Positions 3,419 to 64,000 of a DNA stretch of 64,000 nt are shown piece by piece; the stretch's first letter is position 1, and every line of letters begins with the position of its first letter. Below the pieces are notes generated by a model, which saw nothing but the letters and a program-made list of their open reading frames with translations, did no database searches and was not told where the DNA came from. The stretch lies in assembly GCA_963921795.1 (NCBI GenBank), contig OY997640.1, forward strand, positions 49,936,404 through 50,000,403, given 5' to 3'. Position numbers and translations under genes: made by a program. Source of the stretch: Nannobrachium achirus. Lineage: Eukaryota; Chordata; Actinopteri; Myctophiformes; Myctophidae.

Positions 3419-6596
<3,178 letters not shown>

Positions 6597-9796: not shown

Positions 9797-9972
9797 ACTG
9801 TTCTCAGTGGAGGAAAAAGTACTTGCATGTCTAAGTAAAAGTATCAAATGCAATGTAGAAATACTGTGTTACAAGTATAAGTCTGGAATTCATAATGTAC
9901 CTGTTGTAAAAGTAAAAAGGTATTGGTGTCAAAATATAGTACCAAAAGTAGTAATCTATTTTTGAAAGGATT

Positions 9973-10031
9973 GCTAACTCACAAGCTCACAATGCGTGAT
10001 GCATTGTGAGCTTGTAGATCTGCTATTTTAA
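9973..10031. repeat. Mini-palindrome copy 2
   Basis: Core stem ACAAGCTCACAATGC pairs with GCATTGTGAGCTTGT around a 5-base loop. The right side continues AGATCTGCTATTTTA. Nested in the hAT MITE at 9805-10289. Confidence 0.8.
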
Positions 10032-10261
10032 AATGATTTAAATGTTTTTAGGTCTCAAGTGGTTAATGTATGTTTTGTATTAATAATCAAAATCTAACTA
10101 GAAACAAATAATTGTAGAGGTGAACAAGTACAATATTTTCCTCTGAGATGTCGTGGAGTAGAAATAAAAGTACAGAAAATTGGAAACACTCAAGTAAAGT
10201 AAAATTACCCCAAAATGTAACTTAAGTACAGTAGTTGAATACATGTACTTAGTTACTTACC

Positions 10262-10282
10262 TAACCCTAACCCTAACCCTAC
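10262..10282. repeat. Interstitial telomere-like CCCTAA run
   Basis: About three and a half units of the vertebrate telomere motif CCCTAA, located within the last 30 bases of a hAT MITE. Confidence 0.8.
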
Positions 10283-10798
10283 ACCACTGACTGTTCTTCA
10301 TCTTACTGTACTGTAAACTGTGGGACACTTCCCACAGGTATGGATTCTCCTGGGTTATCAGAGCATCAGTTAATCACTTTCCCTCACCTTACGCTTAAAT
10401 TGTGCAATTTTTGGAAAGAAAAATGCTTCTGAAATGACACTGTTAGTTCAAGATGCTGGGTGTTTCAGGAAAACAAACATCAGGTCACTTGAGATTGGAT
10501 CTTGAACTTCTCAAACGTCATGCATTTCCAGTCAGTCTCCCAGTCGCTCTCCCTCTCTGTCTATAGTATGTATATGATTGACGTGTCTATTTTGGGGTGT
10601 CTGATCTCACTGACTGATTTACACACCTGAGACACATTCCTGCCATGACACTTCTGTGGAGGGGTGAAAAGTTAAACAGGCACTGCACAGAGTGCCTACC
10701 TGGGTCCTGTGTGGGGGCCTTGGAATCAGGGGTGTCGCACAAAATTCTGGGCCCTGGGTACAAGGATTCACTCACATTTTGTGCTTTAACTATTGACA

Positions 10799-17052: not shown

Positions 17053-17345
17053 TTAAAGGAGTAGGTCGCCCCCAAAATGACTTTTTTTCTATCGATTACT
17101 CACCCCACAGAGACTTCAATAATATTATTTTGTTTTTGTCACATTCCGAAGCCAATAATTTGAGGAGACTCTCCATCCGGAATCAATGGGGGTACATTCA
17201 TTATGGAAATTATTGGATTAGGAATGTGACATAATTATTGGATTAGGAATGTGACATAAACAAAAACATATTGTTGAACTCAATTCTACATGGGGTGAGT
17301 AATCGATAAAAAAAAAGTCAGTTTGGGGGTGACCTACTCCTTTAA
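17053..17345. mobile_element. Palindromic TTAA MITE (Kolobok-like), second copy
   Basis: Same family as 1422-1744: begins AAAGGAGTAGGTCGCCCCCA, ends with the imperfect complement, and has TTAA on both sides. It lies in frem2 intron 1 just after the exon 1 donor. The open frame of exon 1 reads through the donor into this element before stopping, which is not coding. Confidence 0.8.
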
Positions 17346-17411
17346 GCACAGCAATACCTTGCTTAATAGTAATGGATATACTGAGAACAAACAAGAGCAA
17401 TGTTAGCTTAC

Positions 17412-20400
17412 CTTGTGTGAAGGTTGTGATGCTATTGTTACCCTGGGCGGTGTTCATGATGAAGCCATGCAGGGGAGCCTCAGCCACGGTGTACTTCAAG
17501 ACTTTGCGGTGGCTGTCTCTGTCTTCAGACTTAAGGGCCTTGCTGGTGATCAGGAATCCCACATGTCCGGTATGGAGCACCCTTAGTGTGGCGGCAGCCT
17601 TGTTCACCACAATCTGAGGGACCCCGTTATCCACTGTGTTAATGTGAATGGTCATCATCTGGGGCTTGCGTGTTTCGTAGATGGTGTCAGGGTAGACGTA
17701 GAAGGAGTTGTGTGTGCCATCTGTGACTGTGAAGGAAAAACTATCCTCATTGGTCTCTGTGCCGTCATGCTTATACGTGATGAGGTTCTCATTCAGGTCT
17801 TGCTTGGTGAATGTGGTGATCGGTTGGGTGTTGTTGAAAAGCAGCTGCCCGTGGACTGGCACTTGGGTGACTACGAAGCGTAGCAGGTTGTCAGGTGTAT
17901 CACGATCCTCTACCGTCAATTCGAATGGCGTGATGAGTTTGGTTTCTCCCTCTCCCACGTATAATTTGCTGATGGTCAAGACAGGTTTTTTATTGTCTAC
18001 ATCAGTGATGGACACTCTGAATGTACGGAAGACTGGATTGTAACCATCAGTAACTTCAAACTCGAAGCTGTCCATCTTCATCTCATCGTCAGAGGTATGG
18101 ATGTAGTAGATCTTGTTGCCAGCGAGCTGCATTTGAGTGAAGGTGGAGATGGGAACACCTGGGAAGTCAGTGCACTCCAGATGACCCCTGCTGGGTGCTC
18201 GTGTGATGCTGAAGGTGAGGTATTCATCAGGACTGTTGATGTCAGTGGTGCTGAGCAGGTCAGTAGTAAGAGTTACTTTTCCTCCTTCTTTGAGAGTCAC
18301 ACCTTTGTTGATGACATCTGGGAAGACCATGTCAATGCTTCCAATGTTGATGTAGAAGTAGCGGTCAATGAGAGGGTTGATGCCGTCTGTGACATCAAAC
18401 TTCAGCAAGTCACGGATTCCCTCTTGACCAGTGTGCACATACTGAATGAGCTGTTTGTCAATATCATCCTGTGTGAAGTTCATCCCAATGGTGATATTGC
18501 CCAAAACATTCCCAAACTTGGAGATGCGCTGAAGGTAGCCTTGGCTTGGGCCATAGCGTACAATGTATGTCGACTCTTTGTCTTCAGAGTCAAGGTCTGT
18601 GGCCTTCAAAACCTTGTTACTGATTATTTTGGTCTCGCCAATCTCAACTTCAAGTCCATCGTTTATTGTCATTCTTGGTGTCTCGTCATCAACAGGAATA
18701 ACCATGATGATAACCTTCTTTTCCACAGTGTGCATCCCATCTGAAAGCTTGATTTCAAAGCTGTCCTCCTTGGTCTCAGAGTCATCATGTTCATACACAA
18801 TGTTAGATGCCTCCTTGATTTGTTCCAGATTGAATTTATCAACTGGGAGTGTGCCAGTGTTGAGCTGCTGTACTATTGTGCCATGCTCAGGGTACTTGAT
18901 GATCTCAAAGTCCAGCTCATCCCCGGGGATATCAGCATCAGCTGCATTCAGGATGGGCGTGTCAATGACCAGACTCATGCCTTCCATCACTACAAACTCG
19001 CGGATGAAAATCTCAGGTTTTTCATCATTAGCTGGAATGATAACAATGGGGAAGAAGTGGCGCTCCGAGAAGTTGATACCATCTGAACAGCGGAAGGTGA
19101 AGCGATCTTCAACAGGTTCCACACCTTTGTGGATGCTCTGGACATAGTAGATATGGCCAAGGCCAATGTCCTTGATGCTAAAGGCAGTGATGGCCGTGCC
19201 TGCCCTGGACTTCTCAGAGCCTGGGGCTGGTGCGATATTCTCCACGTAGCCAGATGTTGGCTGGACGATGATGGTGCACAAAATGTCCTCATTGTCTGTG
19301 TCGATATCCTCAGCCTGGATGTGCTCCGGAGTAATGACATTCTTCTCTCCTTCAATCACCACAAACTGCTCTCCAACACTGACAATTGGTGGGATACTGT
19401 CAAGGGGGAGGATGGTAACGTGAACCCTCACACCTTGAACCTTGTTTCCCCCGACAACCCATTGGTCCGACATATCAGACAGGGTGAGGTTGAAGGAGTC
19501 ATGTTCCTTAATTGGTCCAATTTCACCTGATGTGTGGGCATACACCACCACCCCATTGATAAGGTCCTGCTGAGTGAATCTCTCAGCAGGGGCCCCGTTT
19601 ACTAGGATCTCCCCCAGCCTGGGAGGCTCCTCAACGATGAAAGTGAGCATGAGGTCATCTGTGTCTTCGTCGCGACCCTGAATGACATTGGTCGTAATTT
19701 CTGTTGCTCCATTCTCCAACACATCGATGGCGGACCCTAGCAGGCCAGCCGGAAGCATAAGAGTGGGGGCCTCATCATCGACAGGTTCAATGGCAATCTT
19801 AATAATGATGGGCACCTCATGGAAGCCATCACTTACATCAACCTTGATGGTATCACTGAGGGATTCCTCTCCACTATGAATGTAAGTCAGATGGCCATTT
19901 TCTATGTCTTCCAGCACAAATGTATCACCGTTTGACATGGCAATACCTAAATACTGAATTTGCCCAAAGCGGGGAATCTGGGTCACTGTGAACTCAATAT
20001 TTTGATCCTCAGTATCCTGGTCAGTGGCATGCAGCTCTGTCTTAGTGATGACATAAGAGCTTCTCTCTAGAACAGTGAACCCAGTGTTGGTAATTACGGG
20101 GGGTTTGTTGTCAACAGGCTGTAAAAAAATGGTGAATAGCCCATCTACTGAGTTACCAGCAGTGTCTTCCACAAGGAATGTGAACTGAAGAACTTTTGGA
20201 GTGATGCCCAGTTCCTGGTCAGGGGGCTTGTAAGCCACTTTGTGGTGATTGACCTGGGCCTGTGTGAACTCGGAAATGGCAATGTCAGGGCTGTCAATCA
20301 GAACAATGTCACCCAGAGGGGCTGGGTTGTTCTCATCCGTGTCTGTGGGGGATTTTATGACTGTATACTTCAGGTCTCTGTCATCTGAATCCAGATCGGT

Positions 20401-22432
20401 ATAACGCAACAATTTCTTTTTGAAGTGTGTTAGCTCATACTCCTGCACTGTCATGTGAAGGGTGGTGCCCGGATAGAGCTCTGGGGGGATGTCATCGACA
20501 GGGTGGATTTTGATGGTGAAAACATGTTCACCTGACTGGTTTGGGGGATCATTATCATCTTGCACCCGGAATACAAACTGGTCATTTACAGTAGTGGTGC
20601 TGTGGGGTCCGATGTGACGGTAGAAGAGCTTTCCATCCAGAATATCTTGCTGAAACCACTCGGTCACCACCTGCTCAAACATCTCATCTGTCTCACTGAA
20701 CTTCCAGAGAGAGGGGTCAGAGGGAGGCTCAACTTGCCTGAGAAGCAGCTCACCCACAGTTGAGTAGGGGGCTTCCAGAATGAATTTAATGGTAGAGTCT
20801 TCTGAATCAATATCGGTCGCACTCAGAATAAATGGGGAGAGCTGCATAACCTCATTTTTAAACAGCACCAGGCCAGTGTTGGCATTGATAATGGGGGGCT
20901 CGTCATCTGTGGGGGCAATAGTGATGGGGAACAAAAACTCCACTTCGTTCTTGCCGTCTGTCATTCTGAAAATAATATTGTCACTGTAGGTGTCACTGCC
21001 ATCATGCTGGTACACTACAATGCCAGCATCCAAATCAGCAGGAGTGAAGAATTTCCTACGGCTGCCAAGCACGGTTAGCTCTCCGTGTTTTAAGCCATCT
21101 ACAACAGTAATTTGTACGTCCTCAAGGTTATCCTCATCACTGATCTCTAAATTCTGGGAGCTGGACAGAGCTCTGGACTGCCCTTCAAACAATAGCTGCC
21201 CTGTGTTTTTGGTCGCCACAGGGGCCAAGGTATTCATAGGCTTCACCACTATCATAAAAGCAAAGGGATCAGACACAGCTCCATCGGTGTCTACGATTTC
21301 AAACTCAAGCTGGAAAATCCTCTCCACCTCCGAGTCCTCTGAGGGAGGCTTGTAAGCTATTTTAAGGTCTTTAATGTCTCTCTGATAGAAGGAGGTGATG
21401 GGCAGGTTCTGATCATCTGTGCTGATGATGTAGCCCTGGTTATAGCCCAGAGGTGAAGTAATGTTGAAGATTAAATCATCTGGATCGGATTCAACATCCT
21501 CAGCGGCAAGCATATCACTCGTTATAGCTGTCATCACAAATTGATCAATCTCATCATCATCATAGCTACGAAGCTGGGCTTAGGGGCAGTGTTCTCCGTG
21601 CCCTCTCTTATTCTAACCATCATCTGGAAATGCTCTTGCATTATGTATTGCCCTCATTGTCCTGCAGCTCTACCATCATTGGAACATAGTCTCTATTGGT
21701 GACTTGGTCGTTGCAGTGTGCTTGTAGCGAATGCCCTGCTTAACAAACTCATCACAGTCAATCATCTGGCCATTGGGGGGGTTATTCAAAAGTGTGCCAT
21801 ACCTGGGGAGTCCTCCGGCGCCAACCAGAGTGGTCATCTTACACTGGGTCACACCGTCCTCGTAGGAAAACTCCAGACCTTTTTGTCAATGGGGTTGCTG
21901 TCGCTGTTAAGTTTCTCCACACTGAGTGGCATATTCCTGGTGAGGATCTCGAGCTGCTGGAATACCACCTCCACCTCAAGCATGAAGGGGATGATGACGG
22001 TGTCCGTATGGGAGTCATAGCGCAGCTGGAGCTTTACCCGATCCTTGCTGGGACTCCGGGAGCCAAAGTGAGTGTATTTCACCTCATCAGCTCCGAATGC
22101 ACAGGGGAACTTTTTGGGGCTCAGCATTCCAGGTTGCTGGGCCAGCGGGTCATTGTCCAGAACAGTGATGTGACACCGGTCACCAGGCTGCACCTCGGTC
22201 ACCAGGTCATTGACAGGGTCCAAATACACAGACCTCCCAAAGGGAACCCTAATTCCATTGTTGGCGATGATGATGTTGTCTTCATCAGGTCCAGTCCTAT
22301 GGCGATAAAGAAAGCCGGGTCAAAGGGCTCTGCATCCACTGAAGCAAAGAAGCCCAGAGCAAAAGTAACAAGGAGACATCTGAAAAGCCCCCGTGTTTGA
22401 CAGATCCCTGAGCTTTGCAGACAACCAGCCAT
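17412..22432 (-). CDS. frem2: FRAS1-related extracellular matrix protein 2, giant exon 1
   Basis: FREM2 is a secreted/membrane protein of epithelial basement membranes that acts with FRAS1 and FREM1 in epidermal-dermal adhesion. The start at 22432 has G at -3 and +4 and gives a signal peptide ([19 protein letters not shown], then [15 protein letters not shown]). The N-terminal region contains [15 protein letters not shown] and QPGDRC. About twelve CSPG repeats follow, with motifs such as [14 protein letters not shown] and [27 protein letters not shown] and [18 protein letters not shown] are almost identical to mammalian FREM2. The donor is GTAAGC after 17412. From 21550 to the donor the frame is open without a break. 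In the first 900 bases five single-base shifts occur (near 22288, 21880, 21696, 21642, 21550), each explained by one missing base. Adding five bases gives 1675 codons plus one base, exactly the phase needed for exon 2. The frem2a/frem2b paralogue is not determined. Confidence 0.95.
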
Positions 22433-22521: not shown

Positions 22522-22721
22522 NNNNNNNNNNNNNNNNNNNNNNNNNNNNNNNNNNNNNNNNNNNNNNNNNNNNNNNNNNNNNNNNNNNNNNNNNNNNNNN
22601 NNNNNNNNNNNNNNNNNNNNNNNNNNNNNNNNNNNNNNNNNNNNNNNNNNNNNNNNNNNNNNNNNNNNNNNNNNNNNNNNNNNNNNNNNNNNNNNNNNNN
22701 NNNNNNNNNNNNNNNNNNNNN
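22522..22721. other. Assembly gap (200 N)
   Basis: Exactly 200 N, the usual placeholder length for a gap of unknown size. GT- and G-rich tracts flank its upper side and frem2 exon 1 its lower side. Confidence 0.99.
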
Positions 22722-22769: not shown

Positions 22770-23158
22770 CCCACACACACACACACACACACACACGGGG
22801 GGGTGGGGTGGGGGGGGGGGGGTGTGTGTGTGTGTGCAGGCGGGCGGGCGGGCGGGGGGGGGGGGGGGGGGGGGGGTTCTGGCCCTGTTAACTGTGAAGT
22901 CCGTTTGTCACTTTCACAAATCGTATGCTGTATATTAGCATTTTTATGGTGTATCTATATCTATTCTGCATCTAGCTTGAGGCGTTTCTCCTCAGTGGCT
23001 GGAGCAATTGATCTGAAATCGCATCACCATTAGCATATGAACACACCTAACATAACTGTGATGCTGTATATTAGCATTTTTATGGTGTATCTATATCTAT
23101 TCTGCATCTAGCTTGAGGCATATCTATTCTGCATCTAGCATGAGGCAACATGTTTAAC

Positions 23159-25151: not shown

Positions 25152-25622
25152 GACACTTAATTGGACAGCGGTCTGTGAGCAGTAAATGTAGCCTACTCAC
25201 ATCTAAGTACAAAAAATTGGAAATACTCGAGTAATAGTTTAAAAAAAATCCTCAAAATTGTACAGTACAGTAGCCTACTTGAGATTGAGCACACAGGCGG
25301 TCATTGTGCTGCTTAAAAATAACATACAGATGAATTCAAGGGCAAATATTTACAAATCAGAAACAAGTAACCTTGCTGGGTAATAATCAACTTTATCTTA
25401 ACGAATAAAATGCCATTTTAGACAATTTTATGGTAGAGTAGGCCTATATTGTCTTCTTAATACAATATAAACGTCTGCAGTGGTTGGATCATTACTCTTC
25501 CCTTGAGAAACATAGACTATTGTATAGAACATACTGTACAGCAGTGGTTCTCAACCTTTTCAGGCCGCGACCCCCAAAATAATCAGATTTGAGGCATTAC
25601 ATTTTGTATAACACGGTTCTAT

Positions 25623-25685
25623 TGTGAAAATAGCAGATCTACATGCTCACAACTCCTTGCAACGCGAGGCGTTGTGGCGAGTATT
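25623..25685. repeat. Mini-palindrome copy 6
   Basis: Left arm GTGAAAATAGCAGATCTACA; centre CTCACAACTCC and GGCGTTGTGGCGAG. The right arm is degraded. Nested in the hAT MITE at 25542. Confidence 0.65.
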
Positions 25686-25782
25686 AAAAAGTCCTTAAAT
25701 TGTCACTTTAGAAATGTGCTATCCACGAGTTTCCAACGCCCCATAGTGCATTGCGCAAACGTCTGCATCGAGGTTCCGCCGC

Positions 25783-25845
25783 CGATTTACAAGCTCACAA
25801 CGGGTTGCATCTGCGACGCGACGTGAGCTTGTATGTCTGCTGTTA
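25783..25845. repeat. Mini-palindrome copy 7
   Basis: GATTTACAAGCTCACAACGG on the left, CGACGTGAGCTTGTATGTCT on the right. Second copy within the same hAT MITE. Confidence 0.7.
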
Positions 25846-26050
25846 AACCCGGAAGTTTGGTCCTGATAGTCTCCAGTAAACCCCCGGGGAAACTTGTGGA
25901 TATGCTTAAACGTTATGTTGGTTTGTTTGTTGAGTGAGGAAAACAATGTTGCACATTAAGTTAATCATCTGGGGACCCCCCAAAATAATTTGGGGACCCC
26001 CTGGGGGTCGGGGGGTCCCGACCCACAGGTTGAGAACCACTGCTGTAGAG

Positions 26051-26909: not shown

Positions 26910-29255
26910 GATTTAGAAGGCATTTGTAGAATCAGCCTCGGGTGTTAATGGGTTGAAGCGTAGTATAGAGGGAATATGAGGGATGTCCCTGTGGCAGTCA
27001 TGGTGACAAAGCACAACATGGAGAGAAACTGAGCTGTCATATTTTGGATGTGGTGAATGTGAGAATGTGCACTCAGTGTGGTGCACAAGGTCATGTTAAG
27101 ATAAAAATACTTGGTGGCCTTTTATGGAGCATCATTTGAGATGGGCATCAGACACGGTGCTGTGCAGTATGCATTGCACACACACTCATATTTTCCTCCC
27201 TGTTGCTGTACTGTTTTTTTTTATTTTATTTTATTTTTTAGATTTTTCAAACATTTAAAGTCTGTAATCATAGAGGGATACAGTGAAAGCAGACTGAGTC
27301 CTCTGGAGAATTACGTCACATCAATGGCAAAAATCGAAAAATGTAAACCTGAATTCGATGTACATTTCATTGACCCTTCATTTCTACCCTCATATAAAAT
27401 GTGGCTATGATCGAATACTATAGAGAGACTACACCATGAGACAATCTTTCATATTGCAGGGCAGTATTGAAAATTGTGTCACTGAACAATGAATGGCTCA
27501 CTGCAGGAGCTTGGGACTTCAGTAATGCTAATGAACATAGGAGGATGTGAATGAAAGGATGAGGCACTGTGTGGCACATAGAACCTCCCTGGAATGGACG
27601 TCCCCTTTAGTGTGCACTGAATATCCAGGATGCCACATGCCTTCAAACATTCTACATCAGTCTTTTTCTACCCCCCCTAAATAAGTCTTGCCCTCCTCAC
27701 CCTGCCAGCCTGGAATGAACACGTACTGGAGCGTGCAATTATAGAAACAAACACAGCAAACCTTTTATAAATGGTAACGCACACAGCTTCATTAACTCTG
27801 TTGCTTTGGAGTAACCAGCTATTGTTTATCATTGCAGAATATGATGACCTATACAATATGAGGTTAAAAATGCATACCATACTGTTAAACTAACACAAAA
27901 AAGGTCACTAGTACTTATGTTTAATTTAAGCTCTGTTGTATGACTGTGTCGCACTCAAGAAATATCAGATCTACAAGCTCACAGCATCTTGTCACATCCA
28001 TGAGCCATTGTCTATAGTTCTGGCTTTAGACTACCCGAGGTCTTGCTCAAGGGCACATACCGGTCATTAGTTCCAGATACAGACTTTATTTATGGTTGTA
28101 AACCATTCTTTTAGACACCCTCATTAACCTGTCTGTAGCCTATGCACACTAATTAAGAGGTTTCACCTTCTGTCTTATGTTAATTAGGGTCGGTGGTAAA
28201 GAGACAATGACAGAGAGAGATGAGTTGCATAGTGGTCTGGTCCTGCTGACCAGACTCACCTTCTCTGCTTCATGCAGAACAGCTCGTGAGATAGGAGACC
28301 ATAATGACCTCATAATGGAATGGGAAACAAAGGCTGAGTGGTTCCAGTCATCTATCCCTCAAACTGCCACCCAGGGCAAAACTGGAAATGTCCTAATTGC
28401 CTTCCTGCTGTCATGGAATGTCGGCAGATAATTTACAGATGGATTTGTGGGTCACACTGCCTCATTGGAGAAGTAAAAACAAAAAAGATTGAAACATCCG
28501 CTGTCAGTAAGTTATTCTTTGAGGCCCTGGTTCTCTTGCTTTATTTTATGTCATCATTATTTATTATTATTGACTGGAGTTCAATAAACAGGTGTAAGTC
28601 ACGTATGCAAATAGTGTTTAAAAAAATAGGCCTATAGAATGGCCTGTACATAACTACACAAATATCCAATGAAAAGTGAAACTGTTGTCTTTTTTATGTG
28701 TATCAATATTGTTGTCAGACTTGCATGTTATATTTATTTGTTGTTATATTCCTTTGCTGAAAGGAAAAAGCAAGACTCAAAGAGAGAGTAGTGAGCGTTG
28801 ACAGTGAGGAATTGATCAGCACAGCAACTTCCTCTCAAGGGCTCAAAGTCCCACACCTGTGCTAGAAGTGGCTGTCCAGGATAGAACATGTCCTGCACAC
28901 AGACCTTGGCCAAGAGCATGAACATTTATCTCCATGAATCATAGGAGGACACCATGGCCTTGTACTGTAAAGCCATGGTATGCAGCTTATTGTAAACATG
29001 CAGCTTGCTTGTGACTGGGATCTAAATGATTAACTTAAATTACGATATTTGTATGGAAAGTTATTATTGTAAGTACATAAAATAATATGCTGGAGTATAG
29101 CTATAACCTCTTAGCCTTTGGCCATTTTGTTGCTTACTTACACTACAATACATTTACATTAGTGGATAAACATAGGTTAATACAGTAAAAGGTCATTACA
29201 CTGGACAGTAAGGTCCTACCAAATTTTGCACCTGAACACAAGGGTTGAAATATTT
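26910..29255. other. Intergenic sequence, no gene seen
   Basis: About 2.3 kb without a supportable exon. A left-half mini-palindrome remnant (ATCAGATCTACAAGCTCACA) is at 27960-27985. Confidence 0.5.
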
Positions 29256-30677: not shown

Positions 30678-30774
30678 GGCTCCAGCAGGGGCGTCACAAG
30701 AGGAGGGGAAGTGTGACTGAGTTACTAGGGCCCAAGGTGGAGGGGCCTTCATTATTTTATACTTTAGATATTGA

Positions 30775-30822
30775 AAAAAATAGCAGATATACAAGCGCAG
30801 TACCGAGTGCCGCGCGCTTTTT
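30775..30822. repeat. Mini-palindrome copy 10
   Basis: GAAAAAAATAGCAGATATAC then AAGCGCAGTACCGAGTGCCG; the right arm is cut short. Confidence 0.6.
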
Positions 30823-31012
30823 GGCGAACATTTGTAACTCAAATTTTCCTTCTGGGGGGTCCCTGGAACTAGATATTTTGACATTGGGGTCCGTGGCCAA
30901 ATACATATTATTTGGGGGGTCCTTCACATGAAAAGGTTTGAGCCCCACTGACATAGAAACATACGTTTAAAAAAAAACCTTAGAAGGATTTGAAATATTC
31001 AAATTTTCAAGA

Positions 31013-31080
31013 TTTTTCAAAAATAGCATATATACAAGCACGCAGCGCGGCACAGAGCTTGTATATCTGCTATATTTCAA
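31013..31080. repeat. Mini-palindrome copy 11
   Basis: Left CAAAAATAGCATATATACAA, right GAGCTTGTATATCTGCTATA. The usual GATCTAC/GTAGATC has become TATATAC/GTATAT in this copy. Confidence 0.75.
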
Positions 31081-31154
31081 TAGTTAAAGCACAAAATGTG
31101 AGAGGATCCTTGTACCCAGGGCCCAGAATTTGGTGCGACACCCCTGGGCTCCAG

Positions 31155-45117: not shown

Positions 45118-45462
45118 TACCAGTAATTATCTGCTATCTGCTATAACTGCTATTTGCACTCATTCTCTGATTGGGCAAGGAGCCCCACCTATACAGCCAT
45201 CTATACTTATTAGTTTTATATTGCATCTGATACAGTACATCTGTTTCTCTCATTGACCATTCTACACAGGCTATATGCAATTCTATCAGTCATATAATGA
45301 CTAGAGAATAAAGAGCCTTTAATGGCCTTGTATAATATACATACAATAAACACCAGTGGGTGAGGAGGACAGAACACTTTTAACAGAACCCTTCTAGAAC
45401 TAGTTGAGGGACTATTGTCAAGCCTGCTCTCTACCGGTTTTGCTTGGAATCAGTTGCCATCT

Positions 45463-45597
<135 letters not shown>

Positions 45598-45892
45598 AGG
45601 GAGTGTCTCTCTGCTGTAAAGCTGCCCAGGTGATATACTGTAACTGATTTGACCCACCAGTCTCAACCACATCAAACCCTCACATCCAGGAAGCTTGGCC
45701 CAATCACTGTCATTAGCCAAATAGGGATCCTGCATCCAGCCACACGGTATGTCAACAGGTTCTCACCCCTATTGCGTCATACAACTGACGCGATCTTAAA
45801 TACCGAATGCTTCTCACCATAGACGCGGACGGATTGCCTAATGTCTCAAGGGACAGACGCATTGGGTGGTCTAAGAAGAAAGAAAAAAAAGT

Positions 45893-48351: not shown

Positions 48352-48774
48352 TAAAGGGACATGATCCTTGACTGCCAACGCACTACATGTTGGAGCCATG
48401 CAGAGAGCCCTCAGATCTGGGGCTCCTATCATCGGCTGTTAAGTGTGGTGTGAATTCCTCTGGCCTCATGGCCCTGGCCTCTGGGTGCATGGCGGCAAGC
48501 TTCTGAGCAGATAAAGAGAGGGAGAAAGCACAGGTGCGGATGTGGGCCAAACGTCCTCTAGCTTGTGACGATTAGACTGAAAGGGGTGACCCTTTTCAGT
48601 CAGGTGACATTTTTGTGGGTTTTGATTGGCACTGTTTAAAGTATCTTTCACTGTTTAAAGTATCAGGCACAGACTTTAAATTATTTCAGAATTCACAATT
48701 ATTAACGTAGAGCAAACTCACAAATGAGGACTTTTAAATGCAATCGACTGTTTCTGAAGAGAACACTGCATTCT

Positions 48775-48893
<119 letters not shown>

Positions 48894-50408: not shown

Positions 50409-50745
50409 CAGTGGTGGAAAGTAACTAAAAGTAACTCAAGTGAGGTACTTTTACAGTACTGTACTTCAATTTCTTTATAATGTATAGGCTACTACTAGAT
50501 GTACTAACAGTACATCTCGTGGGCAAATATTGTACTTCTATTTAATCTATTAGTACATCTCGTGGGCAAATATTGTGCTTCTATTTAATCTATAAAAAAG
50601 CACATGATGTGTTGCATCGTGTCGTGGGCTTGTAGATCAGCTTTTTTAACGTTCTGAAAAGTTGTACTTTTGCATTGTGTCTTTTAAGTCTATTGATTTG
50701 ATGCTAATACTTTTGTACTTTTACTTTCTCAAGTAAAATTTGGAA
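50409..50745. mobile_element. AGTACT-rich hAT-type MITE, truncated
   Basis: Starts CAGTGGTGGAAAGTAACTAA and runs through TACTTTTACTTTCTCAAGTA, as in the complete copy at 9805. The right terminus is missing. A 50-base block with AGTACATCTCGTGGGCAAAT is duplicated in tandem. Carries a degraded mini-palindrome at 50592-50650. Confidence 0.65.
50592..50650. repeat. Mini-palindrome copy 14 (degraded)
   Basis: The right arm GTGGGCTTGTAGATCAGCTT is recognisable; the left is reduced to AAAAAAGCACATGATG. Confidence 0.5.
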
Positions 50746-50749
50746 TTTG

Positions 50750-51374
50750 GAACAGTGTTTCTATGGCTGTTTTCACCAATGTACTGTAAAAAAGAAGAAG
50801 AAAAAACAAGTATATGTGAATGGAACATTCCGAGAAAGTGGTGAGAGTTTTACAACTCTTGAATGTAGGTCCTGCATGAATGTCAAGTTGTTCGTTCGGC
50901 TTTCCATCACCCAATTAAAAGAAATTCACTGAAATGTGAGCAGGCGGTATGTTGGACCAAAAAGATGGACATAGCTTGGGAGCTGCCAGTCTCTCACTAT
51001 CCTGCCAACATCAACCCCATACAGAGGCACAGTAGAGAGGCATTTAAACAATTTACAGTACCACAAGCTCAAGAAAGTACTATATAATATAGTAATATGG
51101 CCATAAAAGACTGACACAGAGATCTCCATTAATGGATCATTCAAATGGTAAGACGAAATATATTTGCAAAAGTCGCGTCACAGCAACCACACTTGCAATT
51201 TCCAATTGCATCTTTCTTTTTGAAATGTATCCAGTGTGCTAAGCAATAGCTTTCCCTTTTTATAATACTCTTACTTTTAAATTCCTTAATCCCAATTGTA
51301 TAACCTGGGCACTTAGCTACAGCTCTTAGGTTTGCATAAACATAAAAGGGCAACCTAAACCCAATCACACCAAC
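50750..51374 (-). other. Gene 2 intron sequence after tail exon 5
   Basis: No supportable exon other than the donor at 51374. Confidence 0.45.
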
Positions 51375-51494
51375 CTGGTGTCTCCGTCTTGATCACGTTG
51401 TTGCTGTTGTTCCCATTGAGCAGTTTCAGGGATTCTTCCGAGGTTTGGTTGGAGGTGGTGCCTTCGTCTTCTGTCTTGTCTCCAGGGTTCTCTT
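51375..51494 (-). CDS. Gene 2 tail exon 5 (acidic cytoplasmic tail)
   Basis: This 120-base exon is open in one frame and encodes ENPGDKTEDEGTTSNQTSEE followed by SLKLLNGNNSNNVIKTETP. The acceptor is CTTCCTGTAG and the donor GTTGGT; it enters and leaves in phase 1, matching its neighbours. The product is acidic and rich in Glu, Asp, Thr, Ser and Asn, consistent with the cytoplasmic tail of the membrane protein encoded by this gene. If the upstream hAT element and one target copy are removed, the frame runs directly from tail exon 4 through three extra codons (Leu-Pro-Val) into this exon. Protein family not recognised. Confidence 0.75.
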
Positions 51495-51965
51495 CTACAG
51501 GAAGGGTAGCAGTGTTAATTTAGTACTAAACCTATTCATCTACTATCGTTCTTCACTGACGAAAACGAAATGAAAACTAAGCTATGATGACTAAGACTAA
51601 ATGTTGAGGATTTCTTCAACAAATAAAAACGAGACAAAAACGACTAGTGGAGAAGATATCCAGTAGAACTAAAAGACAAGTCATTTTATGTTTGGTTGCA
51701 AATGTGGTGAAAATAACAGATCTACAAGCTCACGTCACAGCATGGCACGTTGTGAGCTTGTATATTGGCTATTTTCAGCATGCAACCAATTGTAAAATCC
51801 AGCATTACGACGCCATCAAGGCCAAAAATATTTTTTTGTCAACAAAATCAACTGTAGAGTTAGTCGACAAAAACTAAAACATTTCATTGACTAAAATATG
51901 ACTAAAACTTAATTACATTTTATTGAAAAAACTATGAATAAAACGAAATAAAAATGAACACTGAC
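51495..51965 (-). other. Intron formed almost entirely by a hAT MITE
   Basis: The 471-base intron between tail exons 4 and 5 contains the 454-base MITE (51510-51963). At the donor, GT is the last two bases of one target-site copy and the following CAGT is the transposon terminus, giving donor GTCAGT. At the acceptor, the other target copy (CTACCCTT on the minus strand) plus exon-derived CCTGTAG supplies the pyrimidine-rich 3' splice site. Both flanks are in phase 1, and the pre-insertion sequence is open across the junction. Confidence 0.75.
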
Positions 51966-51971
51966 GGGTAG
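51502..51971. mobile_element. hAT-type MITE inside a coding region
   Basis: Termini CAGTGTTAATTT (51510) and AAATGAACACTG (ending 51963) are inverted repeats at 11 of 12 positions. Flanking 8-mers AAGGGTAG (51502-51509) and ACGGGTAG (51964-51971) form a target duplication with one mismatch. The interior (GACGAAAACGAAATGAAAAC, ACTAAAATATGACTAAAAC) matches a common teleost hAT MITE. A mini-palindrome is nested at 51690-51790. Confidence 0.88.
51690..51790. repeat. Mini-palindrome copy 15
   Basis: Core GGTGAAAATAACAGATCTAC to TATTGGCTATTTTCAGC. Further out, TTTGGTTGCA and TGCAACCAAT also pair, extending the complement beyond the usual ends. Confidence 0.8.
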
Positions 51972-52088
51972 CAGCAGGAGCAGGGGTCTCCTCTGGAACT
52001 GGTTTGTCCACAGAATCAGAGTCAGCGGGCAGAGCGGAGGCAGGAGGATCAGTGCTGGTGTCTGCAGCAGGTTTGTCCTCAGTCTCAG
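51966..52088 (-). CDS. Gene 2 tail exon 4 (acidic Pro/Ala/Asp-rich)
   Basis: This 123-base exon encodes AETEDKPAADTSTDPPASAL, then PADSDSVDKPVPEETPAPAAT. The acceptor is CTGTTATTCCCAG, and the donor GTCAGT overlaps a transposon target duplication. It enters and leaves in phase 1. Composition (Glu, Asp, Pro, Ser, Thr) is PEST-like, as in the neighbouring tail exons. A Helitron ends 18 bases before the exon in gene orientation, so the branch point of the upstream intron must lie in or beyond transposon DNA. Gene identity unknown. Confidence 0.72.
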
Positions 52089-52106: not shown

Positions 52107-54075
52107 TCTATCTATAAATGCGAGAAGTCTCTGCGTGTGTGTTTGTAATCCGTGTATCTCGAGAACCGTTCGTCCCAGCGGCTTCAGATTCGGCACGCGC
52201 GCTCCCCGCCGCGGCACGGAGTGCAGTGCCGGGCCTCGACCCGTCCCGACGCGCGGTTTTCCCTAACCGGCGCGAAACGTTCGGAATCTCCTTATGCGGG
52301 GCTGATTGTTGACATCAGGCTGTTCCGGAGGAAATCGGCGCAAAATCGGTCATTGTGACGTCACTGCAGTGCCGGGCGCAAGCGCTGACTCATTGTGACA
52401 TCACTGCAGTGCCGGGCCTTGCCTCGACCCGACAGATATCTCCGTATATGGGCATAAGACTGAGAACTCCATATATGGGCATATGGGCAGATACAGAGAT
52501 CTCCATACAGTATATGGGCATACATAGACAGATATCTCTGTATATAGGCATAAAAGGGACACAGACCCTAGACCCGACAGATATCTCCGTATACTGAGAA
52601 CTCCATATATGGGCATCTTGCCTCGACCCGACAGATATCTCCGTATATGGGCATAAGACTGAGAACTGAAATCGGTGCAAGCGCTGACTCATTGTGAGAT
52701 TTGTGAAATCACCTCATAAAAGGCTCTGACATCACGTACGCCACATGAGTCAACAAAAAATATCTGTGAGTGTGTATGTATGTATGTAATCCGCGTATCT
52801 CGAGAACCGTTCGTCCCACCGGCACGCGCGTTCTCCATATATGGGATAAAATGAATGCCTGTATGCGGAGCTGATGTCTGACATCAGAGTTTTCCACAAC
52901 CGGTACTGTGTGTCCAGAGATCTTCATATATGGGCATAAGTGGACAAAGACAAACAGATGGTCAAAACGGGTCCTATGACAACAGGTATATTGGGGTTTG
53001 CATTAAAGGATGGGGCATTCATGGGGTTTGCATTAAAGGGTGGGGCATTCATTCCCTATTTCAAATTCGGCACGCGCGTTCCCCACCGCAGCAGGTAGTG
53101 CAGTGCTCGGCCTCGACCCGACCCGATACACGATTTTCTGTAACCAGCACGAAAGGTTCGGATTCTGATGTCTGACATCAGGATTTTCCGGAACTGACAC
53201 TGTGTCTGCATATATCTCCATATATGGGCATAAAATGGATGCAGACAGACAGATACAGATATCTCCATAAATGGGCATAAATGGACACAGGCAAACAGAT
53301 GGTCAAAGATCTCCATATATGGGCATAAAGTGGACGCAGACAGACAGATACAGATATCTCCATATATGGCATAAATGGACACAGGCAAACAGATGGTCAA
53401 AACGGGTCCTATGACAACAGGTATAATGGGGTTTGCATTAAGTTTGTCTCCTCCTCCATCTGTTTGTCTGTGTCCCTTTATTCCCATTATGGAGATCTCT
53501 GTATCTGTCTGTGCCTCCGACTGTGTTGCAGACACAGTGCCGGTTCCCCCTTTAATGCAAACCCCATTATACCTATTGTCATAGGACCCGTTTTGACCAT
53601 CTGTTTGAAAAAGCGACAGAGATCTCATATATGGGCATAAAATGGACGCAGATAAACAGATATCTCCATATATGGCATATATGGGCATACAATGGACGCA
53701 GAATCACAAAGTTCTCCATATACGGGCATAAAAGGGACACAGACAGACAGATACAGAGATCTCCATATATGGGCATAAAATGGACGCAGATAGACAGATA
53801 TCTCCATATATGGGCATATAATGGACCCAGAACTATAACTGCAGTGATCTCTATATGGACATAAAATGGACGCCGACAGACAGACAGATACAGATATCTC
53901 CATATATGGGCATAAATGGACACAGGCAGACAGATGGTCAAAACAGGTCCTATGAAAACAGGTATAATGGGGTTTGCATTAAAGGGCGGGGCATTCATTC
54001 CCTATTTACATTGTTCCGAGTTGGCCAGGTCGCCGACTAGACGCTGGGCCGCCCGAAGGGCGGCCCAGCTTCTAG
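52107..54075 (+). mobile_element. Non-autonomous Helitron
   Basis: Starts TCTATCTATAAATGCGAGAA directly after A (52106) and ends CTAG directly before T (54076), the A^T insertion typical of Helitrons. Two bases before CTAG is a hairpin with a perfect 12-bp stem (GCTGGGCCGCCC/GGGCGGCCCAGC, 54043-54069) and a 3-base loop. No Rep/helicase frame is present. The head motif ATCTCGAGAACCGTTCGTCC recurs at about 52799, and TTCGGCACGCGCG recurs at about 53067, indicating head reiteration. The rest is a degenerate repeat of ATATGGGCATAAA with GGACGCAGACAGACAGATAC. Confidence 0.9.
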
Positions 54076-59844: not shown

Positions 59845-59928
59845 CTTTCTGCTCCTCTTGTCCTCCAGCTTTCTCCTCAGAGTCCTTGGCCTCTTTTGCG
59901 TCCCCACTGTCAGAGAATGTCTGCATCC
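59845..59928 (-). CDS. Gene 2 tail exon 3 (acidic Lys/Glu-rich)
   Basis: This 84-base exon encodes MQTFSDSGDAKEAKDSEEKA then GGQEEQK, with donor GTAAGA and an acceptor in CTACAG; phase 1 on both sides. The first bases of the exon and the CAG of the acceptor belong to an 8-bp target duplication (CAGGGATG on the minus strand) made by the hAT MITE directly upstream. A second copy of that acceptor, with a much better pyrimidine tract (CTGTTCTTGCAG), lies on the far side of the MITE. Using the distal site would add MITE sequence and soon meet a stop. Confidence 0.72.
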
Positions 59929-61588: not shown

Positions 61589-61691
61589 CGCTCTGTGATG
61601 CTGTGTCAGGTGGTCTCTCATCCATAGCACTCAGGGGGATCTCAGCGTCATCCTGTCTGGAACTGGATCCCCGGTCAAGCATATACTTCTG
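61589..61691 (-). CDS. Gene 2 tail exon 2 (juxtamembrane)
   Basis: This 103-base exon encodes QKYMLDRGSSSRQDDAEIPL then SAMDERPPDTASQS. It enters in phase 0 and leaves in phase 1 through donor GTATGT, matching both neighbours. The acceptor is a tandem CAGCAG (NAGNAG), so an extra Gln may be included or skipped. The first of the two AGs is the terminal sequence of a CAGGGG-family hAT MITE inserted directly upstream; the second AG is the likely original site. Serine- and acid-rich, consistent with a phosphorylated cytoplasmic tail following RRNR of the transmembrane exon. Confidence 0.72.
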
Positions 61692-61728
61692 CTGGGGTGT
61701 CACAAGGGGGGGTAAAAGTGGGACTGAG

Positions 61729-62093
61729 TTAAGTAGGCTACCATGCATAGTAGTACATAAGAACCGCAGGAATACATAAGCAACGGAGCGTGAGAGAAAT
61801 TCCGTCCGGTTGATCCGGTCTGTCTCCCAAGCCTCCGTACTCCGGATGATTTAGATCCGTATACGGACGCTTACGGACAGCACCCAACTGGACGGACTGA
61901 ACGTACAAGATGTATATCCGTAGCAAGAAGTACCCACGGCCACCGTTATAAAACATAGGCGCAGTAGTGATGAAAATTACTTTAACTCTGCTCTACAGCG
62001 GTTCTCAAACTGTGTGTCCCAATAATAAATATATTTTATCAAGAAACGGAAAAAAGGTCGTTACACAACCACTTGAAGAGGACGCCTCGACTC

Positions 62094-62157
<64 letters not shown>

Positions 62158-62533
62158 ATATAATTAGCCTACTCCGGGTCCGCATCCATGTGGTTAAATT
62201 TGTACCCTCGCGGAGTTGCATTTACCGCGATAATGTTGCCGACAGACAGCAGATCCAGTCCAGACTGTTACCACGTATTTATACTGTACCAAACATCACG
62301 GCGGGTCAAAAATCTGTGGTTCTACATATTTTGGCTAAATGCTTCGGTTTTTACACGTGAGAACCACCTTCATGTGGCGCGCGGACCCAAACGGGAGCAG
62401 AATTGGAGCGGAAAGCGGGTCGGCACATAAATAACGTGCATGTCTACTATGCATGGCGACGGAATTACCGTACGTAGTTCCTCACCCAAAACGTACACAA
62501 AATCAACCATACGTAACTATAAATGGCCCTTTA
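61729..62533 (-). mobile_element. PIF/Harbinger-like non-autonomous element, copy 2
   Basis: Inverted copy of 41886-42677: starts AGTAGGCTACCATGCATAGT and ends AACTATAAATGGCCCT, flanked by TTA on both sides (61729-61731, 62531-62533). The empty site is visible in the related hAT copy at 30713-30730. A (CACG)n/(CA)n tract at 62096-62153 lies inside. Confidence 0.82.
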
Positions 62534-63746: not shown

Positions 63747-63829
63747 CCTATTTCGCCGCATTAGGAAAATGGATGCAGCTCCCACCCCAACTAGAGCGAT
63801 GCAGAAGAGGATGATTGTGGCTTGAACAC
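63747..63829 (-). CDS. Gene 2 transmembrane exon
   Basis: On the minus strand this exon encodes VQATIILFCIALVGVGAASI then FLMRRNR. That is about 20 hydrophobic residues followed by a basic stop-transfer cluster, the pattern of a single-pass type I membrane helix. The donor is consensus GTGAGT in phase 0, joining tail exon 2 in frame. The chosen acceptor (CAACTGAAG at 63830) puts entry in phase 1, usual before transmembrane exons of immunoglobulin-superfamily and fibronectin-type receptors, but its pyrimidine tract is some distance away. The extracellular part lies beyond the window end. The tail matches no family I can name; ALCAM/MCAM-type adhesion molecules have a similar layout only. Confidence 0.68.
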
Positions 63830-64000
63830 CTTCAGTTGACGACCATTCATGCAAGGGCAAAAAATATTTCAAATCAGTTTACGCTGGAGTTGAAAAAATG
63901 TATAATTAAGTGCTTCTGTAAATAGTAGTTGTGATAATTTTAGTAATAATAGAGAAAAATATAAATTTGTTTTGTAGTAGTATGGCAAACCTATTTGAGG
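63830..64000 (-). other. Gene 2 intron upstream of the transmembrane exon
   Basis: AT-rich, with a TTTTTTGCCCTTGCATG pyrimidine-containing stretch just before the exon. No further exon fits within the window. Confidence 0.45.

Follow-up and report, generated by a model that had tools for sequence, protein, structure and literature searches.

Maize Dissociation (Ds), which is a hAT element, reportedly made an intron, in work by Giroux in 1994. Vertebrates are considered to gain introns only very rarely, and a 2012 review tables introns attributed to transposon insertion in Oryza, Drosophila, Oikopleura and Zea. A 2025 study of the slc26a2 gene of notothenioid fishes described introns that arose from transposon-like elements; intron 3 of that gene contains the element NTE-1 with a nested NTE-2, which later lengthened the intron, and its gt and ag lie in direct and inverted repeats (PMC12357937). 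Ray-finned fish also gained introns in their melanocortin receptor genes, some of them with pieces of repeats, and a medaka MC5R intron holds a short piece of hAT-2_NV (2011 study; PMC3151243). Introners are non-autonomous DNA transposons that make introns, many of them with target duplications or inverted ends (PMC9860276).

We analysed a window of 64,000 nucleotides from Nannobrachium achirus (contig OY997640.1; coordinates below are those of the window), in which a hAT-type MITE interrupts a coding exon on the minus strand and may, together with bases of its target copies, form a new intron. A DNA transposon making an intron is what this locus would share with the maize Ds case, from which it differs in that the Ds host is a plant and that the ends and target of Ds are different. 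With slc26a2 intron 3 it has in common a teleost host, an inverted-repeat element in a coding exon, gt and ag placed in repeats (here those of the proposed intron) and a second, nested element. The architecture is that of slc26a2 with a different type of element: NTE-1 has tgt...aca ends and 4-base direct repeats, whereas the MITE has CAGTG ends and 8-base repeats, and the slc26a2 intron is common to five notothenioids, whereas the MITE case is known from one sequence (PMC12357937). A sequence-only reading of the locus had held that clear vertebrate cases would be rare, a claim that needs toning down now that this teleost case is published. Introners are defined by many similar introns per genome, unlike the proposed MITE intron, which is a single known case (PMC9860276), and in the melanocortin receptor table the repeat pieces lie inside longer introns, whereas here the MITE and its target copies span the proposed intron from edge to edge (PMC3151243).

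The insertion comprises the following features.

51510..51963, minus strand: hAT-type MITE of 454 bases with ends CAGTGTTCATTT and AAATTAACACTG, alike at 11 of 12 end bases.
51964..51971, minus strand: donor-side target copy CTACCCGT, whose last two bases (51965-51964) are the proposed donor GT.
51502..51509, minus strand: acceptor-side target copy CTACCCTT, which contributes to the pyrimidine tract.
About 51707..51779, no strand assigned: 73-base palindromic element that occupies the middle of the MITE and has relatives at other places in the window.

Read along the minus strand, the order around the MITE is ...CCTGCTGCTACCC/GTCAGTGTTCATTT...AAATTAACACTGCTACCCTTCCTGTAG/AAGAGAACC.... The two target copies are alike at 7 of 8 positions, and both abut the CAGTG/CACTG ends of the 454-base element. 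The window holds 191 CAGTG...CACTG pairs that lie 80-1200 bases apart, and in 3 of them the flanks are alike at 7 or 8 of 8 positions. When the same motifs are paired at any distance, 8 of 9,900 pairs have flanks that reach 7 of 8 (the 3 included), a rate at which about 0.15 pairs with flanks alike at 7 of 8 or better would be expected among the 191. On this excess, a chance direct repeat was rejected as the source of the flanks. A chance match is, by these counts, an unlikely explanation for the apparent target duplication of the 51510-51963 element, and the target copies that the sequence-only reading had placed at donor and acceptor hold up as more than coincidence. In 5 of the 191 pairs the ends agree at no fewer than 10 of 12 positions; two of the five, the 51510-51963 element being one, also have flanks alike at 7 of 8.

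An 8-base duplication and CAGTG-type ends are marks of hAT elements. The MITE has the 8-base target duplication, short inverted ends of the CAGTG type and a small size (454 bases), and contains no transposase-sized frame, the longest listed stop-to-stop frame wholly inside it being of 89 aa (51608-51877, plus strand). Its GC content is 32%, compared with 59% and 51% in the two exon halves. No second full copy was found in the window, where the longest match to a part of its ends covers 39 bases (27212-27250, E 0.007). The entry of a transposon into a coding exon is close to certain.

The palindromic module in the centre of the MITE (approximately GAAAATAGCAGATCTACAAGCTCACAA and its reverse) was checked at 16 places, with six end types tried. 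At four of them (9981-10029, 25624-25653, 31020-31079 and 51707-51779) it is hosted by four different hAT-like elements with target copies alike at 7-8 of 8 positions, located at 9805-10289, 25542-26042, 30686-31146 and 51510-51963; the ends of the 9805-10289 element are alike at just 8 of 12. The other 12 places have no enclosing pair at 6 of 8 or better.

The interrupted exon and the proposed intron are laid out as follows, with a slash at each splice junction.

51966..52088, minus strand: 5' half of the split exon, entered and left in phase 1, with an acceptor of 8.9 bits (codon scan).
51495..51965, minus strand: proposed GT-AG intron of 471 bases, divisible by 3, donor CCC/GTCAGT, acceptor CCCTTCCTGTAG/AAG.
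51375..51494, minus strand: 3' half of the split exon, likewise entered and left in phase 1, with the donor CAG/GTTGGT of 6.4 bits (codon scan and donor-filtered scan).

Comparison of these coordinates with those of the MITE bears out the description of the whole 471-base intron as essentially one 454-base MITE plus target bases. Deleting the MITE and one target copy had been said to restore a continuous frame, and the resulting empty site, ...PAPAATLPVEENPGD..., is indeed open for 252 bases, from 52088 to 51375 on the minus strand, with phase 1 at either end. The predicted spliced product, ...PAPAATQENPGD..., is 243 bases long; LPVE is replaced by Q, and the nine bases removed leave the phase intact, in agreement with the same reading. 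A loss-free (precise) intron was rejected, as nine coding bases leave with the insert. The retained form, ...ATRQCSFLFRFIHSFFNKM, reads through Arg and 16 element codons and then meets a stop.

The codon scan, which had the window's FREM gene as its sole training set and penalises stops, and is hence blind to the undivided exon, calls both halves (51966-52088 and 51375-51494) as phase 1-1 exons. It made 13 calls on the minus strand, of which the 5 outside FREM are the two halves, 61589-61723, 59845-59928 and a low-complexity stretch at 22795; 6 of its 7 calls on the plus strand lie opposite FREM and are presumably false. A scan demanding donors above 4 bits listed the 3' half and missed the 5' half. 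Alternatively, the 3' half may be a last exon that runs on to a stop at 51355; AATAAA/ATTAAA signals were looked for after it down to 49500, and the first is at 50589. Directly upstream of the split exon, 52118-54001 is by eye rich in repeats, with units such as gacagatatctccgtatatgggcata. Elsewhere in the window, long runs of the CA/TG type (45431-45619, 48702-48891 and 62039-62158) give artificial open frames.

Splice sites were scored with a generic vertebrate PWM, which does not include the branch point. The acceptor at 51494 scores 8.6 bits, the 98.6th percentile of the 3881 AGs on the strand, and 48% of PWM-drawn acceptors score at or below that value. The proposed donor, with C at -2, -1 and +3, scores 2.9 of 12.6 bits, which places it at the 85.3rd percentile of 4033 GTs; 5.3% of PWM-drawn donors score as low. 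The old donor at 51375, at 6.4 bits, is at the 97.0th percentile of the same GTs, and within the MITE, past the retention stop, there is a GT stronger than the proposed donor (GTGAGC at 51734, 6.5 bits). About 20 bases 5' of the AG, the terminal repeat of the MITE contains a branch-point-like TTAAC, which matches the animal branch-point pattern yUnAy. Fish do use donors with C at +3, GTCT being among those tabled for the MC5R introns of Takifugu and medaka (PMC3151243).

From the insertion, which is legible in the DNA itself, we infer that the spliceosome may treat the 471-base segment as a new GT-AG intron and excise it to give the main product, a reading that we give an even chance of being right. 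A hAT-type MITE would have entered a coding exon of a minus-strand membrane-protein gene and duplicated 8 bases. At the donor, the target copy ends in GT, which the terminus CAGT would complete to GTCAGT; the opposite terminus would provide TTAAC as a branch point, and the second target copy together with former exon (CTACCCTTCCTGTAG) would act as pyrimidine tract and acceptor. These origins of donor and acceptor had been proposed in the sequence-only reading, and the minus-strand sequence agrees with both. The spliced mRNA would be in frame with three codons lost. We count in favour of the intron the AT-rich composition of the MITE within a GC-rich exon and the early stop that follows retention, and against it the weak donor, the internal 6.5-bit GT and three rival RNA outcomes that also keep the frame, namely use of the new acceptor on its own, skipping of the exon and removal of the MITE without the spliceosome. 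As to the earlier proposal of a newborn intron, the sequence supports an insertion into an exon that left no space for a pre-existing intron, as well as the GT-AG pair and the kept frame; the proposal is tempered by the donor and by the frame-keeping alternatives. Because the donor is weak, use of the intron may be partial, with transcripts possibly shared with direct use of the new acceptor.

The splice sites were compared with those of simulated insertions, in which the MITE was placed at 4219 positions of a FREM coding exon in each orientation, with donors allowed from 20 bases before the element to 6 bases into it and acceptors within its last 10 bases or up to 40 bases past it. At least one in-frame GT-AG pair existed at 3742 of the 4219 positions per orientation. 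The observed donor and acceptor, however, sum to 11.5 bits (2.9 + 8.6), and this sum was reached at only 18 positions in one orientation and 17 in the other; an insertion at random would therefore seldom come with sites this good. The corresponding fraction (35 of 8438, or 0.4%) is distinct from a p-value, since the finding was picked from a large scan. The one base by which the target copies differ has a large effect on these scores. If both flanks are CTACCCTT, no in-frame pair in the searched range scores above -10.8 bits, which amounts to none usable; if both are CTACCCGT, the sum is 9.3. On this scoring, the difference favours splicing whichever copy changed, having either created the donor or improved the pyrimidine tract; a single differing base cannot prove selection.

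The chief rival to a spliceosomal intron is use of the new acceptor alone: exon 59845 would be joined straight to 51494, the old 5' half and the MITE would both become intron, and 44 codons would be removed in frame. We regard this outcome as unlikely, if a serious possibility. The acceptor at 51494 nearly equals the old one at 52088 (8.6 and 8.9 bits) and both are in phase 1, but the old acceptor is intact. The donor that closes the 5' half is weak, whereas the 3' half either is flanked by good sites or forms the last exon; vertebrate exon definition favours the 3' half, and this half alone is listed when donors above 4 bits are required. Even so, a donor of 2.9 bits falls within the real range, at about the 5th percentile of those drawn from the PWM.

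We are also doubtful that the exon is skipped, or the insert retained or partly exonised, any of which would give a shortened or truncated tail and make this a disrupted or null allele, perhaps a polymorphic one. The exon is phase 1-1 and the frame would survive its loss, but skipping is impossible if the exon is terminal, with its stop at 51355. Retention would bring in the stop after 16 element codons, and the internal donor GTGAGC at 51734, which lies beyond that stop, outscores the proposed one. A disrupted allele sits less well with the two halves, both still open with coding-like codons, and with the one-base difference between the target copies, by which the insertion need not be brand new.

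Very improbable, in our view, is the excision of the MITE from the mRNA without the spliceosome. RTCB-dependent 'SOS splicing' has been reported in a review to excise DNA transposons from animal mRNAs, but the review, in its excerpted text, gives no sequence rule against which the element could be tested (PMC13247085). The MITE RNA has a predicted fold of -112.7 kcal/mol (z -4.4; none of 100 shuffles as good) in which the two ends are paired, as would suit this route; set against it are GT-AG sites that score high for a random insertion. An older intron into which the MITE landed, for which no support was found beyond the resemblance of the two halves to separate exons that it too predicts, is rejected and in practice ruled out, because removal of the MITE and a single target copy would leave just 9 bases of intron, which read in frame and are too short for the spliceosome to act on as an intron.

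Returning to the spliceosomal intron, it is conceivable, and in our judgement highly unlikely, that the MITE family is an incipient vertebrate introner. Its CAGT ends would complete a donor wherever the target ends in GT, and the branch-point-like TTAAC would stand at a fitting distance, such that copies landing in one orientation in exons that have a pyrimidine-AG close by could make introns; at this locus a later change of a single base in either target copy (from T to G giving the donor, or from G to T giving a better tract) would have completed the process. The simulation counts against this, as few sites yield good introns and neither orientation is better by the PWM, which leaves out the branch point.

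The host gene was followed upstream of the split exon, and the neighbouring gene downstream of it.

59845..59928, minus strand: predicted upstream exon of the host gene, phase 1-1, MQTFSDSGDAKEAKDSEEKAGGQEEQK.
61589..61691, minus strand: predicted upstream exon, phase 0-1, QKYMLDRGSSSRQDDAEIPLSAMDERPPDTASQS (the codon scan starts it at 61723; 61691 is from the donor-filtered scan).
63747..63830, minus strand: membrane-spanning segment GVQATIILFCIALVGVGAASIFLMRRNR, from hydrophobicity, followed by donor-like AGG/GTGAGT, with a provisional exon start.
17221..22319, minus strand: large 5' exon region of a FREM-family gene with Frem_N and Cadherin_3 repeats, the downstream neighbour on the same strand.

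The FREM region is open in two stretches (17221-21579 and 21852-22319), and Frem_N is divided between two frames. A 459-aa FREM piece has a library match at 90% identity over 87% of the piece, and 2 of its 44 protein-library hits carry fish names (Mugilogobius and Larimichthys). The host gene, upstream of FREM, appears to encode a membrane-protein tail and is tentatively glycophorin-A-like; this likeness is a lead, of which the insertion and intron findings are independent. The tail inside the membrane, DAEIPLSAMDERPPDTASQ, gave a score of 45 against DTDVPLSSVEIENPETSDQ, which we take to be the end of human glycophorin A (GYPA), the one candidate tried and tried after the likeness had been noticed. 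That score was matched by none of 2000 shuffles of the tail only and by 18 of 2000 shuffles of the membrane segment plus tail. Human FREM3 adjoins the GYPA/B/E cluster on chromosome 4 (PMC6693204). A search of the open-licence literature for glycophorin, FREM3 and SMARCA5 together found no paper.

Database searches with the host gene returned little. Against Pfam, the joined exon peptides matched no family at E up to 10, glycophorin A being absent, and against PDB their sole matches at E up to 10 were three levansucrase sequences (E 1.6). In the protein library, an 85-aa piece had 5 candidates, none at E 0.001, in a search whose length limit would hide full-length relatives, and the 175-aa host peptide had 281 candidates, none at E 10; the library has fish proteins, and the miss is weak evidence only. 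A Pfam scan of the three minus-strand frames (stops as X, the N run at 22522-22721 excluded) gave no match above the curated cut-offs outside FREM, the matches below them being to DUF3915, Zip and Atrophin-1. Pattern scans of viral contigs and genome contigs gave 0 matches.

A transposon-born intron is in itself no first, maize Ds and notothenioid slc26a2 having come before. Among the matches listed from the open-licence literature, the MITE intron would be the first vertebrate hAT element found to span a new intron from edge to edge, and if the reading is true, it would add a hAT case to the published teleost case of a transposon-derived intron. The steps of intron gain are seldom visible. 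At this locus the target copies, the transposon ends and the former exon are all still legible, and each splice signal can therefore be traced to target, transposon or exon.
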